A DNA stretch of 64,000 bases from Cloacibacillus sp. (lineage in GTDB: Bacteria; Synergistota; Synergistia; Synergistales; Synergistaceae). The translations under genes were made by a program, and so were the position numbers. The DNA is taken from assembly GCA_036655895.1 (NCBI GenBank), contig JAVVPF010000010.1, positions 1-64,000 on the forward strand. Direction: 5' to 3'. The notes beneath the pieces were generated by a model. It did no database searches. It saw only the letters and a program-made list of their open reading frames with translations, and had not been told where the DNA came from. Positions 14,122 to 19,295 of the stretch are shown piece after piece (position 1 is the stretch's first letter; every line of letters starts with the position of its first letter).

Positions 14122-14396
14122 TTTATCTCTCCCGTGTCAGTCGTTTCATTGCAAGAGGCAGGTTTGTCGTCCTCTTCTTCCGTTTTTTGTATTTCAAGGC
14201 CTTCGGCGCGCAGCGCGCCGACCAGCCCCATGAGGTCGCCGTAAAGTTCTTTTGGCGTGAAGATGGTGACTCGTCCCGCCTTCGCGTCGTCGGTGCGCAG
14301 AAAGCCCAGCCCCTCCGCCGCGTCTATTATCCAACTTATATAGTATATATCTTTTTGAGGCACAGTAAGGCGTACCTCGCATATTTCCGGTTTCAT
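14118..14396 (-). CDS. Small DUF4911-like protein
   Basis: 92 residues, no signal peptide or membrane segment, with an acidic tail. It reads as a compact alpha/beta domain: a strand beginning EICEVRLTVPQKDIYYISWI, then LGFLRTDD and VTIFTPKELYGDLMGLVGAL. From memory it resembles DUF4911, a domain of unknown function; this was not checked. It sits between mltG and tldD with four-base overlaps on both sides, so it is real and co-translated. Confidence 0.75.
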   Translation of the reverse strand: MKPEICEVRLTVPQKDIYYISWIIDAAEGLGFLRTDDAKAGRVTIFTPKELYGDLMGLVGALRAEGLEIQKTEEEDDKPASCNETTDTGEIK

Positions 14397-15418
14397 GATC
14401 CCGCCCGCCTCTTTTTTTCTATATTTTGCTTTGCAATATGTTCTTCGTAGGTCTTGCTGAAGAGATGATGTCCGTCGGCCGCCGCGAAGAAAAATAAATA
14501 GTCGCCCGACGTCGGATAGAGCGCGCCAAGCCAGGCGTCCTCACCGGGAACACATATAGGCGCCGGGGGAAAGCCGCTGTGTATGTATGTATTGTACGGC
14601 GATTTTATTTCAAGGTCTTTATAGGTAAGACGCCGTTTTTTTACGTTTTGCATCTCCCATGAATAGACTACGGTAGCGCAGGACTGCATCCTCATATTTT
14701 TTTCGAGGCGCTTTAAAAAAATTCCGGCAAGCACTGGGCGTTCCGCGGCTATGCGCGCCTCGCCCTCGACCATTGAGGCAAGTATCCCGCGCTCGAAGAG
14801 CCACGAACGCGACGCCTCCTTCGGCAGTTTTGTACCTACTTTTTTGTACCATTGTTCCGACGCTCTTTTTACAAACTCGGAGGCCGCCTCTTTGCCGGGC
14901 GAGATGAAATAGGTCTCGGGCAGCAGATATGCCGCGCGCAGCACTGTTTTTGCAGGGATCAGCTCAAGCACCGGAGGGTAGAAATTGGCGTCGTCCGCTA
15001 GCGCCTTTTCAAAGAGCGAGCCGCCCGCTTCGTCTGCGCCGAAAAGCTTTGCCGCTCGTTCAAAGGTCGAGCCTGGAATGAGCGTCACCTTGTTCACCAC
15101 CGGCTTTGCGCGCAGCAGCTGCCGCACTACTCCAGCGGGCGAGCTTTTGCGCAGAGTGTAAAGCCCCGGCATCAGCCTGCGGTCTATACCGGCTGAGGCC
15201 ATCTCGCGCGAAAGTCGCCGCGCGTCGTCCGTGACGCCCGCCTCAACTATCTGCCGCGCGGCCGCAGCCGCAGTAGCCCCGCTTGGAATGAGCACCTCAT
15301 GTTTCGTCGTCCACTCGTCGGGAAGCTTGGGGTATGTATATGGTACGTAGAGGCATAAATAACAGAATGCCGAAATTGCCGTGATAAAAATAAAAAGGTC
15401 CTTCTTCGTGCCAAGCAT
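14393..15418 (-). CDS. mltG: Endolytic peptidoglycan transglycosylase MltG
   Basis: YceG-family lytic transglycosylase that cuts nascent glycan strands and sets their length. 341 residues: an N-terminal membrane anchor (about 8-28), a LysM-like region, then the catalytic domain with ILASMVEGEARIAAERP, whose Glu after MV is the expected catalytic residue. NMRMQSCATVVYS aligns with the E. coli stretch that usually reads LQTDPTVIYG, so the usual DP is CA here. First gene of the mltG-to-ftsK run. Confidence 0.93.
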   Translation of the reverse strand: MLGTKKDLFIFITAISAFCYLCLYVPYTYPKLPDEWTTKHEVLIPSGATAAAAARQIVEAGVTDDARRLSREMASAGIDRRLMPGLYTLRKSSPAGVVRQLLRAKPVVNKVTLIPGSTFERAAKLFGADEAGGSLFEKALADDANFYPPVLELIPAKTVLRAAYLLPETYFISPGKEAASEFVKRASEQWYKKVGTKLPKEASRSWLFERGILASMVEGEARIAAERPVLAGIFLKRLEKNMRMQSCATVVYSWEMQNVKKRRLTYKDLEIKSPYNTYIHSGFPPAPICVPGEDAWLGALYPTSGDYLFFFAAADGHHLFSKTYEEHIAKQNIEKKRRAGS

Positions 15419-15516: not shown

Positions 15517-15545
15517 TTGACATTAAAAAATCTTAGCTGTATAAA
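15517..15545 (+). promoter_or_regulatory. Serine-operon promoter
   Basis: Consensus TTGACA (15517-15522), exactly 17 bases, then TATAAA (15540-15545). Transcription should start near 15552, about 32 bases before the leader ORF. It is the clearest sigma-70-type promoter in the window. Confidence 0.8.
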
Positions 15546-15583
15546 TGTAAACTAATTTAAGCTGGAGAGGGAAGGAACGCCGC

Positions 15584-15700
15584 GTGAAACAGATTTTGAA
15601 CACATCAGCATCTTCGTCATCGTCGTCAGCCTGCGAAAGTTCATCTTTCGGCGGCTCGCAGCGCCGCTGTCCTTCTCAAAGCGAAAATCCGAATTGCTGA
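15584..15700 (+). CDS. Serine-rich leader peptide (candidate attenuation leader)
   Basis: A 38-codon ORF, GTG to TGA, with AAGGAA six bases upstream. The peptide begins MKQILNTSASSSSSSACESS and contains 13 Ser and 3 Cys; codons 10-15 are six consecutive Ser codons (TCT, TCG, TCA, TCG, TCG, TCA). It lies between a consensus promoter and an intrinsic terminator, ahead of an operon for serine synthesis. I infer a regulatory peptide whose translation rate senses charged tRNA-Ser, as in trp or his leaders. The TCN run could be chance low complexity, but position, ribosome site and pathway all agree. Confidence 0.72.
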   Translation: MKQILNTSASSSSSSACESSSFGGSQRRCPSQSENPNC

Positions 15701-15768
15701 ATCGGCAAGCCTGAGGTTATTTACGGAAGACGTTTTGAGATCGGAAGTATTCTTTCGGTCTCTTTTTT
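15634..15768 (+). promoter_or_regulatory. Attenuator: competing hairpins and intrinsic terminator
   Basis: Segment 1 CGAAAG (15634-15639) pairs with segment 2 CTTTCG (15645-15650). Segment 2 extended, CTTTCGG (15645-15651), can also pair with segment 3 TCGGAAG (15741-15747), seven pairs including two G-U. Segment 3 is part of the 5' arm (15737-15747) of the terminator, whose 3' arm (15752-15762) begins with the same CTTTCGG; the 11-bp stem has two G-U pairs, a TATT loop and six T. So 1:2, 2:3 and 3:4 pairings are mutually exclusive, as in classical attenuators. Segments 1 and 2 lie just after the Ser-codon run. Confidence 0.7.
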
Positions 15769-15804
15769 ATTATTCCATTGATTTATAAGAGGGAGGTTTT
15801 ATCT

Positions 15805-16935
15805 TTGAAAAAATATCTGCTCACTCCGGGGCCAGTCGAAGTTCCGCCAGAAGTTTTACAGGCCGCTGGCAGGCCGCTCATAAGCCACCGGTGTGAAGAG
15901 TTCTCCGAGCTTTTCAGGCGTATAGAAGAAAAGCTGCACCAGCTTTTTGAGAGCGCGTCGCCCGTGGTCATACTGCCCTCATCGGGTACAGGAGCGCTTG
16001 AATGCGCCGCCGTAAATTTTCTGAGCGAAAAAGACAAGTTCATCTCGCTCTCCTGCGGCGCCTTTGGCGACCGTTTTCGCGAGATAGCGGAACGCACCGG
16101 CGCGCGCGGCCTCTACGCTGATTTTGAGCCGGGCACCGCCCCCGACGCGGCAAGCGCGGCCCAGCTGGTTTACGACAACCCAGAGGCCGCTGCCATCCTC
16201 ATTACGCACAACGAGACCTCGACCGGCGTCACCGCACAGCTTGAAGAGATAATATCCGCGCTGCCGCGCACAGAATCTTCCCCTCTTGTCATAGTGGACG
16301 GCGTGAGTTCCGTGGGCGCTATAGAATGCCTGCCGGAAAAATGGGGCGTAGACGTGCTCTGCACCGCATCGCAAAAGGGACTGATGACGCCTCCCGGGCT
16401 TGGCTTCGTCTGGCTTTCAAAGAGGGCGCTGGAAAGACTATCTTTGAGGCGCTCGCCGAGCTATTATTTTGATTTGAAGCTGCACCTTAAAAACATGACG
16501 GCCAAATCATTCGCAAACCCCTACACGCCGCCGGTATCGCTCTATTTTGCGCTTGACGCCGCGCTTGATCTGATATTGAAGGACGGAAAAGAGGCGTGGT
16601 TCTCAAAACGTAAAAAATACGCGCGCGCCTTCGCGGCGGCGCTAGAGGCGGCGGGCTTTGAGCTTTTCGTAAAGGACCCCGCGCTTCGTTCTCCGGGCCT
16701 TACGGCCTTCTTTCTGAAAGACGGGCAAAACGAGGCTTTCCGAAGCCGGCTTTCCGCGCTTGGAGTGACCACCGCCGGAGGTCAGGGCGCGCTTTCCGCT
16801 AAACTGGTGCGAGCCGCCCATTACAGCGACTGGGGCGAGCGCGAGCTTTCAGAAATAATATTTGCCATGTGCGCCGCAAACGAAACCGACGCCGCCTGCC
16901 CGCTTAAAAAGGCGCTTGATCTGTTTGGCGCGTGA
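15805..16935 (+). CDS. Class V PLP aminotransferase (likely phosphoserine/serine-type)
   Basis: Fold-type I aminotransferase, 376 residues, of the serine-pyruvate/alanine-glyoxylate aminotransferase family. Seen: N-terminal LLTPGPVEVPPEV, DGVSSVGAIE, and the PLP-lysine motif TASQKGLMTPPGLGF. The start is TTG 15805, because GGGAGG sits nine bases upstream and the product then begins KKYLLTPGPVE as family members do; the frame is open back to 15778. It directly precedes serA, so I infer that it makes phosphoserine from 3-phosphohydroxypyruvate in place of a classical SerC. Glyoxylate or pyruvate transamination is the alternative. Confidence 0.88.
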   Translation: MKKYLLTPGPVEVPPEVLQAAGRPLISHRCEEFSELFRRIEEKLHQLFESASPVVILPSSGTGALECAAVNFLSEKDKFISLSCGAFGDRFREIAERTGARGLYADFEPGTAPDAASAAQLVYDNPEAAAILITHNETSTGVTAQLEEIISALPRTESSPLVIVDGVSSVGAIECLPEKWGVDVLCTASQKGLMTPPGLGFVWLSKRALERLSLRRSPSYYFDLKLHLKNMTAKSFANPYTPPVSLYFALDAALDLILKDGKEAWFSKRKKYARAFAAALEAAGFELFVKDPALRSPGLTAFFLKDGQNEAFRSRLSALGVTTAGGQGALSAKLVRAAHYSDWGERELSEIIFAMCAANETDAACPLKKALDLFGA

Positions 16936-16994: not shown

Positions 16995-18647
16995 ATGGAA
17001 CCTGATAAAAAATGGAAGATACTTGTCACGGAAAAGGTCGGCGACGCGGGCCTTGAAATATTAAAGGCGGCGCAGGACGTAGAGCTTGAGATCGAGCTGG
17101 GACTGTCCGAAGAAGAGCTGTTGGAAAAATTAAGCTGCGTTGACGCCGTTCTTACGCGCAGCGGCACCTCAATGGACGCAGCGAAAATAGCGGCCGCGCC
17201 GAACCTCAAAGTGATAGGCCGCGCGGGCGTAGGCGTCGACAACATAGACCTCCCCGCCGCCAGCCGAAGCGGCATCATCGTCATAAACGCACCGAGCGGA
17301 AACACTCTCGCCGCGACGGAGCTTACGATGGCCAATATGCTCGCAGTCGTGCGCCGCGTTCCTCAGGCCTGCACCTCCCTGCACAACGGAAAATGGGACA
17401 GAAGCCGTTTCACCGGACGTCAGTTGAGCGGAAAAAAACTGCTCATCATAGGGCTGGGCAGAATTGGCAGTGAAGTGGCAAAGCGCGCTCGCGCTTTTGG
17501 CATGGAGATAATAGCCTACGACCCGTACATCCCAAAGAAAAAGGCCGATTTGCTGCACGCTGAGCTTATGTCCGACCTTGAAGGCGCAGTCTCCCTCGCC
17601 GACGTTGTGACGATACACACGCCGCTCACAAAAGAAACGGCCAATATGATAGACGCCGACATGCTGCGCGCCTTCAAGCACGGCGCCTATTTTGTCAACT
17701 GCGCGCGCGGCGGCATAGTGGAAGAGGCGGCCGTAGCCGACGCGGTGCGCGAAGGTCGGCTTGCGGGCTTTGCCACCGACGTATATACCGCAGAACCGCT
17801 GCCGGCAAATCATCCGTTCCTTGCGGACGACATAGCCGATAAAATAGTGATAACGCCGCACATCGGCGCGAACACGGAGGAGGCGCAGGAGGAGGTCTCC
17901 CGCATCGCCGCGACAAATATGCTCCAGGTGCTTCGCGGCGAGCCGTATCTGCACGCCGTAAACCTTCCGTTCATGGAGCAGACGCTCAACGCCGACCAGC
18001 GCATGTATTTGAACCTTTCCCGCAAGATAGGAGTGCTCGCCTCAAAGCTTGCGCAGGTGCGCGGCTCCGCCGCGCATAAGTGCCGCGTCACGCTGCGCGG
18101 CTCGCTCTTCGACGACGAAGAAAAGCGCGTTGCAAACCAGCTTCGACCTTACACCATCGCGGTGCTGAAAGGAATGCTTGAAGTGAGCATCGGCTCCTCC
18201 GTCACCTACATGATAGCGCCGCTGCTTGCCAAAGACCGCCAGATATCCGTGGACGAGAGCTACGGCGAGGCCGTCACCTATAAAAATACGATAGAGGTCG
18301 AGCTTGAGACAGAAAAAGGCAGCGTCTCACTGCTTGCTACAATCACGGAAGAGGGCCGTCACCGCATCGTGCGTGTAAACGACTATTGGGTGGACTTCGT
18401 ACCGACGGGCAAACTGCTCATCTTCCAGAACCACGACCGCCCCGGCGTCATAGGCAAGATAGGAAGCGTTTTGGGCGCAGCCGGCGTCAACATCGCGAAC
18501 TTCGCGCTCGGCCGCAAAGAGGGCAGCGGACTTGCGCTTGGCGCGCTTGAAATAGACGGCGATACAGACGACAGGCTCATGGAAGACCTTATCAAAAACG
18601 GCGACATGGTCTGGGTGGCCGCCGTAGACTTTACAAAGGCGGGCTAA
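16995..18647 (+). CDS. serA: D-3-phosphoglycerate dehydrogenase
   Basis: Oxidises 3-phosphoglycerate with NAD, the first step of serine synthesis. 550 residues, the long form: catalytic and NAD domains with GLGRIGSEVAKRA near residue 152, CARGG and the catalytic-His motif PHIGANTEEAQEE; an intervening ASB-like domain (about 330-450); and a C-terminal ACT domain (DRPGVIGKIGSVLGAAGVNI) that usually binds serine for feedback inhibition. GAGGGGACGA precedes the ATG. Enzyme-level serine feedback would complement the putative leader attenuation. Confidence 0.95.
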   Translation: MEPDKKWKILVTEKVGDAGLEILKAAQDVELEIELGLSEEELLEKLSCVDAVLTRSGTSMDAAKIAAAPNLKVIGRAGVGVDNIDLPAASRSGIIVINAPSGNTLAATELTMANMLAVVRRVPQACTSLHNGKWDRSRFTGRQLSGKKLLIIGLGRIGSEVAKRARAFGMEIIAYDPYIPKKKADLLHAELMSDLEGAVSLADVVTIHTPLTKETANMIDADMLRAFKHGAYFVNCARGGIVEEAAVADAVREGRLAGFATDVYTAEPLPANHPFLADDIADKIVITPHIGANTEEAQEEVSRIAATNMLQVLRGEPYLHAVNLPFMEQTLNADQRMYLNLSRKIGVLASKLAQVRGSAAHKCRVTLRGSLFDDEEKRVANQLRPYTIAVLKGMLEVSIGSSVTYMIAPLLAKDRQISVDESYGEAVTYKNTIEVELETEKGSVSLLATITEEGRHRIVRVNDYWVDFVPTGKLLIFQNHDRPGVIGKIGSVLGAAGVNIANFALGRKEGSGLALGALEIDGDTDDRLMEDLIKNGDMVWVAAVDFTKAG

Positions 18648-18650
18648 GAG

Positions 18651-19295
18651 ATGCGGTTCTTTGTCATCAGGCACGGAGAAACGGCGTGGAATGTCGAAGG
18701 GCGCTTTCAGGGCCAGAAGGACATCCCTTTAAATGAAAAGGGACTTGCTCAGGCGAAACTTCTGGGCGAAAGGCTAGCTGGACACGCATTTTCGGCCGTC
18801 GTCACGAGCCCGCTAAAAAGAGCCTCTGTCACAGCTCTTGAAGCGAGCGCACACTGCCCAAAATGTGAATTTATCGAAGACGTCCGGCTCACGGAGATAA
18901 ACCACGGGAACTGGGAGGGCGCGCTTGCCGACGAGATAGCCGAAAAATGGCCGCAAGAGCTGCGCACGTGGCACAGCTTGCCGCACCTTGTCACGATGCC
19001 CGGCGCGGGCGGAGAGTCGCTTGCCGACGTGCAGAAAAGGGCGCTGCCAGCCGTGCTGGAGATGAGCGCGAAATATGACGGAGACGTGCTGCTTGCCTCG
19101 CACGACGCCGTCATCAAGGCGCTGCTCTGCTATTGGCTCGACGCGCCGCTTTCAAGCTTTTTCAGGATACAGGTGCCGAACTGCAGCGTCACGGTCGTTG
19201 AAGTAAAAGAGGGCGCCGCTCCCAGGCTTTTGCTTATGGGAGACGCTGCGCATCTTGGTGACGCCTTTGAGCGCCCCGAACAAAAGGGATTGTAG
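18651..19295 (+). CDS. Histidine phosphatase family protein, probable phosphoserine phosphatase
   Basis: Phosphoglycerate-mutase-like fold, 214 residues: RHGETAWN (phospho-acceptor His8), SPLKRA (Arg57), Glu82 and SHDAVIKALL (His151). Residue 85 is His, in TEINHGNWEG. As I recall, His85 is important for L-phosphoserine recognition in the metal-independent phosphoserine phosphatase of Hydrogenobacter thermophilus. It starts three bases after serA ends. I therefore infer phosphoserine phosphatase, the last step of serine synthesis, replacing a HAD-type SerB; cobalamin-pathway or generic phosphatase remain possible. Confidence 0.82.
   Translation: MRFFVIRHGETAWNVEGRFQGQKDIPLNEKGLAQAKLLGERLAGHAFSAVVTSPLKRASVTALEASAHCPKCEFIEDVRLTEINHGNWEGALADEIAEKWPQELRTWHSLPHLVTMPGAGGESLADVQKRALPAVLEMSAKYDGDVLLASHDAVIKALLCYWLDAPLSSFFRIQVPNCSVTVVEVKEGAAPRLLLMGDAAHLGDAFERPEQKGL

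Follow-up and report, generated by a model that had tools for sequence, protein, structure and literature searches.

A probable serine leader-peptide attenuator before the serine operon of Synergistota

Leader-peptide attenuation is a textbook mechanism, and yet the amino acids it is known to read are few; serine is absent from the papers we searched. The attenuators of trp, his, leu, thr, ilv and phe genes (represented in Rfam by the Trp, His, Thr and Leu leaders) share three elements: a small ORF in which codons for the product amino acid abound, an antiterminator segment that can be withheld, and a terminator before the first gene. A 2013 survey gives leader peptides for His, Leu, Thr and Trp, plus Ile/Val and Phe only (PMC3766115). 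In 2010, leader peptides were known only in Proteobacteria and Actinobacteria, to which a survey of that year added His leader peptides in Firmicutes (PMC2965389); the latter also figure in PMC9413887, where the passages seen on Synergistetes deal with the HisR repressor. Codon runs for one amino acid before a biosynthetic operon are likewise found in Actinobacteria, where Mycobacterium and its relatives have candidate leader peptides for cysteine, with no terminator found (PMC1262725).

Systems of other kinds are also linked to serine. The Firmicutes serine T-box (PMC8002221) serves the same pathway with a premature terminator and a read-out of tRNA charging. The serC RNA element (RF00517) of alpha-proteobacteria also precedes serC-serA, but it consists of two short stems near the start codon, with proposed translational control and an unknown ligand (PMC1273637). 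Finally, SinR of Bacillus subtilis has serine shortage sensed via slow translation of TCN codons, but these codons lie inside the regulator gene, without leader or terminator (PMC3862929).

The leader considered here lies in a 64,000-nucleotide stretch of DNA (the whole stretch analysed, hereafter the window). Sequence features and their comparison across relatives indicate that it is very probably a classical transcription attenuator mediated by the ribosome, in which charged tRNA-Ser would be sensed and read-through into the operon changed. Its parts, their conservation and covariation, the exclusive pairings and the relation of pairing to ribosome position were obtained by computation. What sets this leader apart from the established amino-acid attenuators named above is its Ser codons, the position of segment 2 within the 3'-terminal part of the ORF, and the phylum. 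The mechanism is known; the amino acid (serine) and the phylum appear to be new within the searched literature. The first-pass annotation had likewise known of none for serine in this phylum, and the open-access literature that we searched gave no serine leader peptide; an earlier prediction in subscription papers is possible.

The leader and its operon

The leader, of about 250 bases, is flanked by an mltG-like gene on the minus strand (14393-15418) and by the serine operon on the plus strand; its features, with those of the operon, are as follows:

15517..15545, plus strand: sigma-70-type promoter, TTGACA-17-TATAAA, read in the sequence; a similar element is kept in relatives
15564..15576, plus strand: ribosome-binding region of the leader, GGAGAGGGAAGGA, and candidate segment 1, from the sequence and predicted pairing with segment 2
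15584..15700, plus strand: putative serine leader peptide ORF, GTG start, 38 codons, 13 Ser; a Ser-rich ORF is at the same place in most relatives
15611..15628, plus strand: six consecutive Ser codons, TCT TCG TCA TCG TCG TCA, read in the sequence; proposed stall site
15634..15650, plus strand: internal hairpin CGAAAG/CTTTCG inside the ORF, possible pause hairpin; sequence not conserved
15674..15683, plus strand: segment 2, TCTCAAAGCG, antiterminator 5' arm, within the S-Q-S-E codons; conserved, covaries with 15731-15740
15731..15740, plus strand: segment 3, CGTTTTGAGA, antiterminator 3' arm; conserved, covaries with 15674-15683
15737..15768, plus strand: intrinsic terminator, hairpin 15737-15762 (11 pairs, -14 to -15 kcal/mol) and T run to 15768
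15752..15762, plus strand: segment 4, terminator 3' arm, from the terminator prediction
15790..15796, plus strand: aminotransferase ribosome-binding site, AGGGAGG, read in the sequence
15805..16935, plus strand: class-V aminotransferase, first structural gene, TTG start (PF00266)
16995..18647, plus strand: serA, phosphoglycerate dehydrogenase (TIGR01327, 564 bits against a cut-off of 454)
18651..19295, plus strand: histidine-phosphatase-family protein (PF00300)

Direct reading bore out the parts listed by the first-pass annotation: a promoter with a 17-base spacer, a 38-codon GTG ORF that has a ribosome site and includes 13 Ser codons (with one block of six), the internal hairpin, an 11-bp terminator with a T run, and the order aminotransferase-serA-phosphatase downstream. 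The promoter elements (-35 TTGACA at 15517-15522, -10 TATAAA at 15540-15545, spacer 17 nt) match the consensus at 11 of 12 positions; our promoter scan missed TATAAA at 15540-15545 because it requires T at the final position. Among the upstream regions compared, TTGACATT and a TATAAA/TATAAG-like element are at the same place in relatives. AAGGA lies 7 nt upstream of the leader's GTG start.

The operon makes the leader's own amino acid, as indicated by serA, which scores above its cut-off and with which the leader stays; for the other two genes we infer the serine role. The aminotransferase falls under all NCBIfam equivalog cut-offs and neighbours serA in relatives, and is a probable phosphoserine/serine aminotransferase. 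The top NCBIfam match of the third protein is the PspA phosphoserine phosphatase, under the cut-off, and it is a possible phosphoserine phosphatase. Downstream of the operon, on the same strand, lies an ADP-ribosylglycohydrolase-family gene (PF03747, 19329-20507). Two known RNA classes were rejected as candidates: the T-box of serine type (no Rfam T-box match) and the serC RNA element RF00517 (no Rfam match at gathering score).

In the proposed mechanism, a ribosome would translate the 38-codon peptide while RNA polymerase transcribes the leader. With ample Ser-tRNA, it would pass the Ser codons, reach the end of the ORF and cover segment 2, leaving segment 3 free for segment 4, and the terminator at 15737-15768 would end transcription. 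When Ser-tRNA is short, the ribosome would stall on the Ser run and segment 2 would be exposed, to pair with segment 3 before segment 4 is made. This antiterminator would block the base of the terminator stem, and the serine operon would be transcribed.

Serine leaders across Synergistota

The aminotransferase was sought in 188 Synergistota genomes, and the upstream DNA of about 73 orthologues was screened for Ser-rich short ORFs, with 200 dinucleotide shuffles per upstream region. Upstream of the aminotransferase, a Ser-rich ORF beyond the shuffles (p<=0.05) was found in 47 of 68 Synergistota; among 74 orthologues from Chloroflexi, Bacillota, Poribacteria and other groups, 5 had one. In these other phyla, a Ser leader before the aminotransferase is thus at background level. 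The best ORF of the window has a Ser content above 40 of 40 dinucleotide shuffles of its own region. Ser-rich ORFs occur in most genera of families f1 (the window's family), f4-f6 and f8-f10, with examples such as MNCKTISKSVSSSSLSSGLSSCGWSSPRRRSQSE, MRRSAYLVYTGISSSSLCSGVSSSCGGSGCLCRSRNVYPMNREDH and MIQMSLFVGRASGSSSSSSSSGWSGRGGLPLPAGGGPL, and a ribosome site usually accompanies the relatives' leaders, as does a terminator 26-72 nt past the stop. Within the 2.9-Mb genome itself, none of 71 five-TCN runs lay in a second short ORF that had both a ribosome site and, before a gene, a convincing terminator.

In nearly all genomes that have the aminotransferase, serA is directly downstream of it. Where the aminotransferase is absent, a Ser leader stands directly before serA, as in G025, G029 and G038 (f6), G009 (f2) and G011, G015 and G016 (f3), and probably in G170 (f1), judging from its upstream sequence. 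Therefore, the leader tracks serine synthesis, whichever gene comes first. The aminotransferase is present without a Ser leader in four f11 genomes (G001-G004) and in G141, G142, G168 and G105. In the last 330 bases before the aminotransferase of G141 (L023), the terminator sequence (GAGATCGGAA...TTCCGGTCTC) is still of the same type and an antiterminator-like pair (ATCTCAAA/TTTGAGA) is kept, while the Ser-rich ORF is absent; this looks like loss of the ORF, possibly a decayed leader in a small genome. Neither a Ser leader before serS nor a branched-chain leader before ilvB was seen in nine genomes. G176 (L252) has an ORF 295-340 nt upstream of a trpE match, with a ribosome site, which likely encodes a trp leader peptide, MTVKAVRLNWWWRTQ; further down is a strong terminator-like hairpin, GGGGGAGGGTCATGAAGGCTCTCCCCC, with a T-rich tail. 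From this trpE leader, leader-peptide attenuation in Synergistota may extend beyond serine.

On average, Ser makes up 24% of the leaders, which is 3.3-3.9 times as much as in genes, against a codon background of window genes and aminotransferase genes. The ribosome site and the conservation of Ser argue for translation of the leader ORF. Differences between the leaders of close relatives fall at third positions in 246 cases versus 193 and 177 at the others, only a moderate excess, and switches from TCN to AGY at aligned Ser codons, sought as proof of translation, were not seen in close pairs. A translated ORF could also encode a functional small protein, the terminator just closing its transcript, and the promoter, start codon and ribosome site would suit such a gene. 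Between genera, however, the peptide is conserved only in its Ser and its C-terminal stretch, and the latter is lineage-specific (SQSE, RSRNV, LPVPAG, ASED). In f1, this stretch is the RNA segment able to pair with the 5' side of the genome's own terminator; moreover, the ORF precedes serine genes wherever it is found. We regard a small protein as very improbable.

Two predicted helices with a common strand

Returning to the attenuator, the last four bases of segment 3 form the base of the terminator 5' arm, so that antiterminator and terminator are mutually exclusive. The first-pass annotation had expected two alternative folds, and two were predicted. If the RNA of the window stops at 15747, short of segment 4, the core helix 15674-15683:15731-15740 forms with a probability of about 1.00 for every ribosome position as far as codon 26, the entire Ser run among them; from codon 28 onwards the ribosome covers it. 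Once segment 4 is included and the leader is free of ribosomes, the terminator reaches a probability of 0.98-0.99.

The annotation had drawn the switch differently, with the hairpin at 15634-15650 as the 1:2 structure and CTTTCGG at 15645-15651 pairing with 15741-15747 as the antiterminator. Both CTTTCGG copies exist (at 15645 and 15752), and seven pairs are possible, two of them G-U. This pairing, however, has a predicted probability of 0.00 as against about 1.00 for 15674-15683:15731-15740, and was rejected as the antiterminator; relatives have no matching internal hairpin (by eye), whereas the TCTCAAAGCG core is conserved. We give this arrangement hardly any credence. The alignment across Synergistota that the annotation had suggested gave a divided answer: the Ser run is kept in relatives, the CTTTCGG pair as competing segments is not. 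The order-wide comparison strongly supports its main idea of a poly-Ser attenuator, while its switch falls with the unconserved sequence at 15634-15650 and a CTTTCGG pairing near zero.

For the window genome by itself, the strength of generic pairing at the terminator arm does not exceed that of shuffled sequences, and the case for the attenuator therefore rests on comparison. In an alignment of 14 relatives in f1, 96.2% of pair cells in the antiterminator (13 pairs) and 98.7% in the terminator (11 pairs) are standard; slid by one to three columns, these values are 24-51% and 42-73%, respectively. Double changes occur at columns 13:84 (C-G/U-A) and 15:81 (G-C/A-U). In addition, columns 13, 84 and 108 change together, column 84 shifting with both its antiterminator partner (13) and its terminator partner (108). 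Such a three-way agreement would be expected of two exclusive helices with a common strand. The aligned genomes are related and fall mainly into two clusters, and the double changes may be just a few events.

Segment-2/segment-3 duplexes are stronger within their own genome, at -22.9 kcal/mol versus -19.9 kcal/mol across genera (p 7e-6). With the ribosome placed on the Ser run, the 5' arm of the terminator pairs at 0.69 with RNA upstream of it (57 genomes); moving the ribosome to the stop lowers this value to 0.36 (Wilcoxon p 1e-9), a drop that is partly built in by masking. Covariation and the cross-genus control weigh more than this drop because masking partly creates it. For f8 and f10, most of these pairings do not improve on those formed across genera. 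The exclusive antiterminator with compensatory changes is clear in f1 and weaker in other families.

The geometry is compatible with the mechanism, as the stall site is upstream of the switching segment and a ribosome near the stop covers segment 2, partially in the window genome. The gap between the end of segment 2 and the stop is 14 nt in the window genome and 2, 8 or 26 nt in relatives (2 nt in several f1 genomes). Because of the 14-nt distance, a stop-parked ribosome covers segment 2 only partly in the window genome.

T-boxes bind uncharged tRNA directly and have no translated ORF, and in this they differ from a Ser leader. A T-box or a metabolite-binding riboswitch might nonetheless drive the terminator, the ORF being incidental: there is a premature terminator with an alternative helix, and Firmicutes do have serine T-boxes (PMC8002221). 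Against this, a search of Rfam release 15 found no family at gathering and nothing credible at E<=1 (two sub-threshold chance matches), and the feature conserved across families is the Ser codons, with no RNA core. An RNA of this kind seems to us extremely unlikely.

A further pairing is predicted when the leader is untranslated: in the window, 15564-15576 (the ribosome-binding region) can pair with 15671-15677. Without a ribosome, segment 1:segment 2 pairing is 0.70 in the window genome, and pairing with segment 2 is 0.68-0.89 in G137, G127 and G128 and about 0-0.3 in other relatives (G134 was left out of this comparison, its automatic segment-2 pick being wrong). The 5' partner of segment 2 is the ribosome site GGAGAGG in the window and CTTTGAG in G137, G127 and G128. 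In three of these four genomes the terminator is free without a ribosome; in G137 it stands at 0.22. As a lead only, segment 1:segment 2 may serve as a fail-safe for an untranslated leader; an arrangement of this kind would resemble superattenuation in trp.

What the leader may read

Cys is as strongly enriched as Ser relative to genes in the leader peptides of the window and its relatives, and base composition explains part of this. The leader might thus sense serine-derived amino acids too (Ser with Cys, perhaps Gly and Trp), such that the operon follows the whole serine family. The enrichment is 3.3-3.6 times for Cys (1.57 times beyond the codon-position composition of non-Ser codons) and 1.35-1.6 times for Gly, and some leaders are Cys-rich, e.g. 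MMMNRNAVCGSCGGSCSRSWSSSQDREGCCFWPRDQV in G011. On the other hand, Cys is mostly scattered rather than in runs, Phe is enriched as much as Cys beyond composition (1.69), and some of the Cys and Gly falls within pairing segments or close to them. We consider such multiple sensing doubtful. Similarly, it is unlikely that the following hold jointly: a serine attenuator that is old within the order, reading of Ser with Cys and perhaps Gly, TCN tRNA-Ser isoacceptors as the main sensor, and the fail-safe.

The six serine codons fall into two unrelated groups, which makes a leader that senses serine a natural test of which codons are best at sensing starvation. The TCN share of Ser codons is 87% in the leaders versus 77% in the aminotransferase genes of the same genomes (p 3e-7), a bias that agrees with the TCN effect in B. 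subtilis (PMC3862929). If the leader works as proposed, translation-coupled attenuation is now placed in Synergistota, and the leader would offer a serine reporter for these anaerobes.
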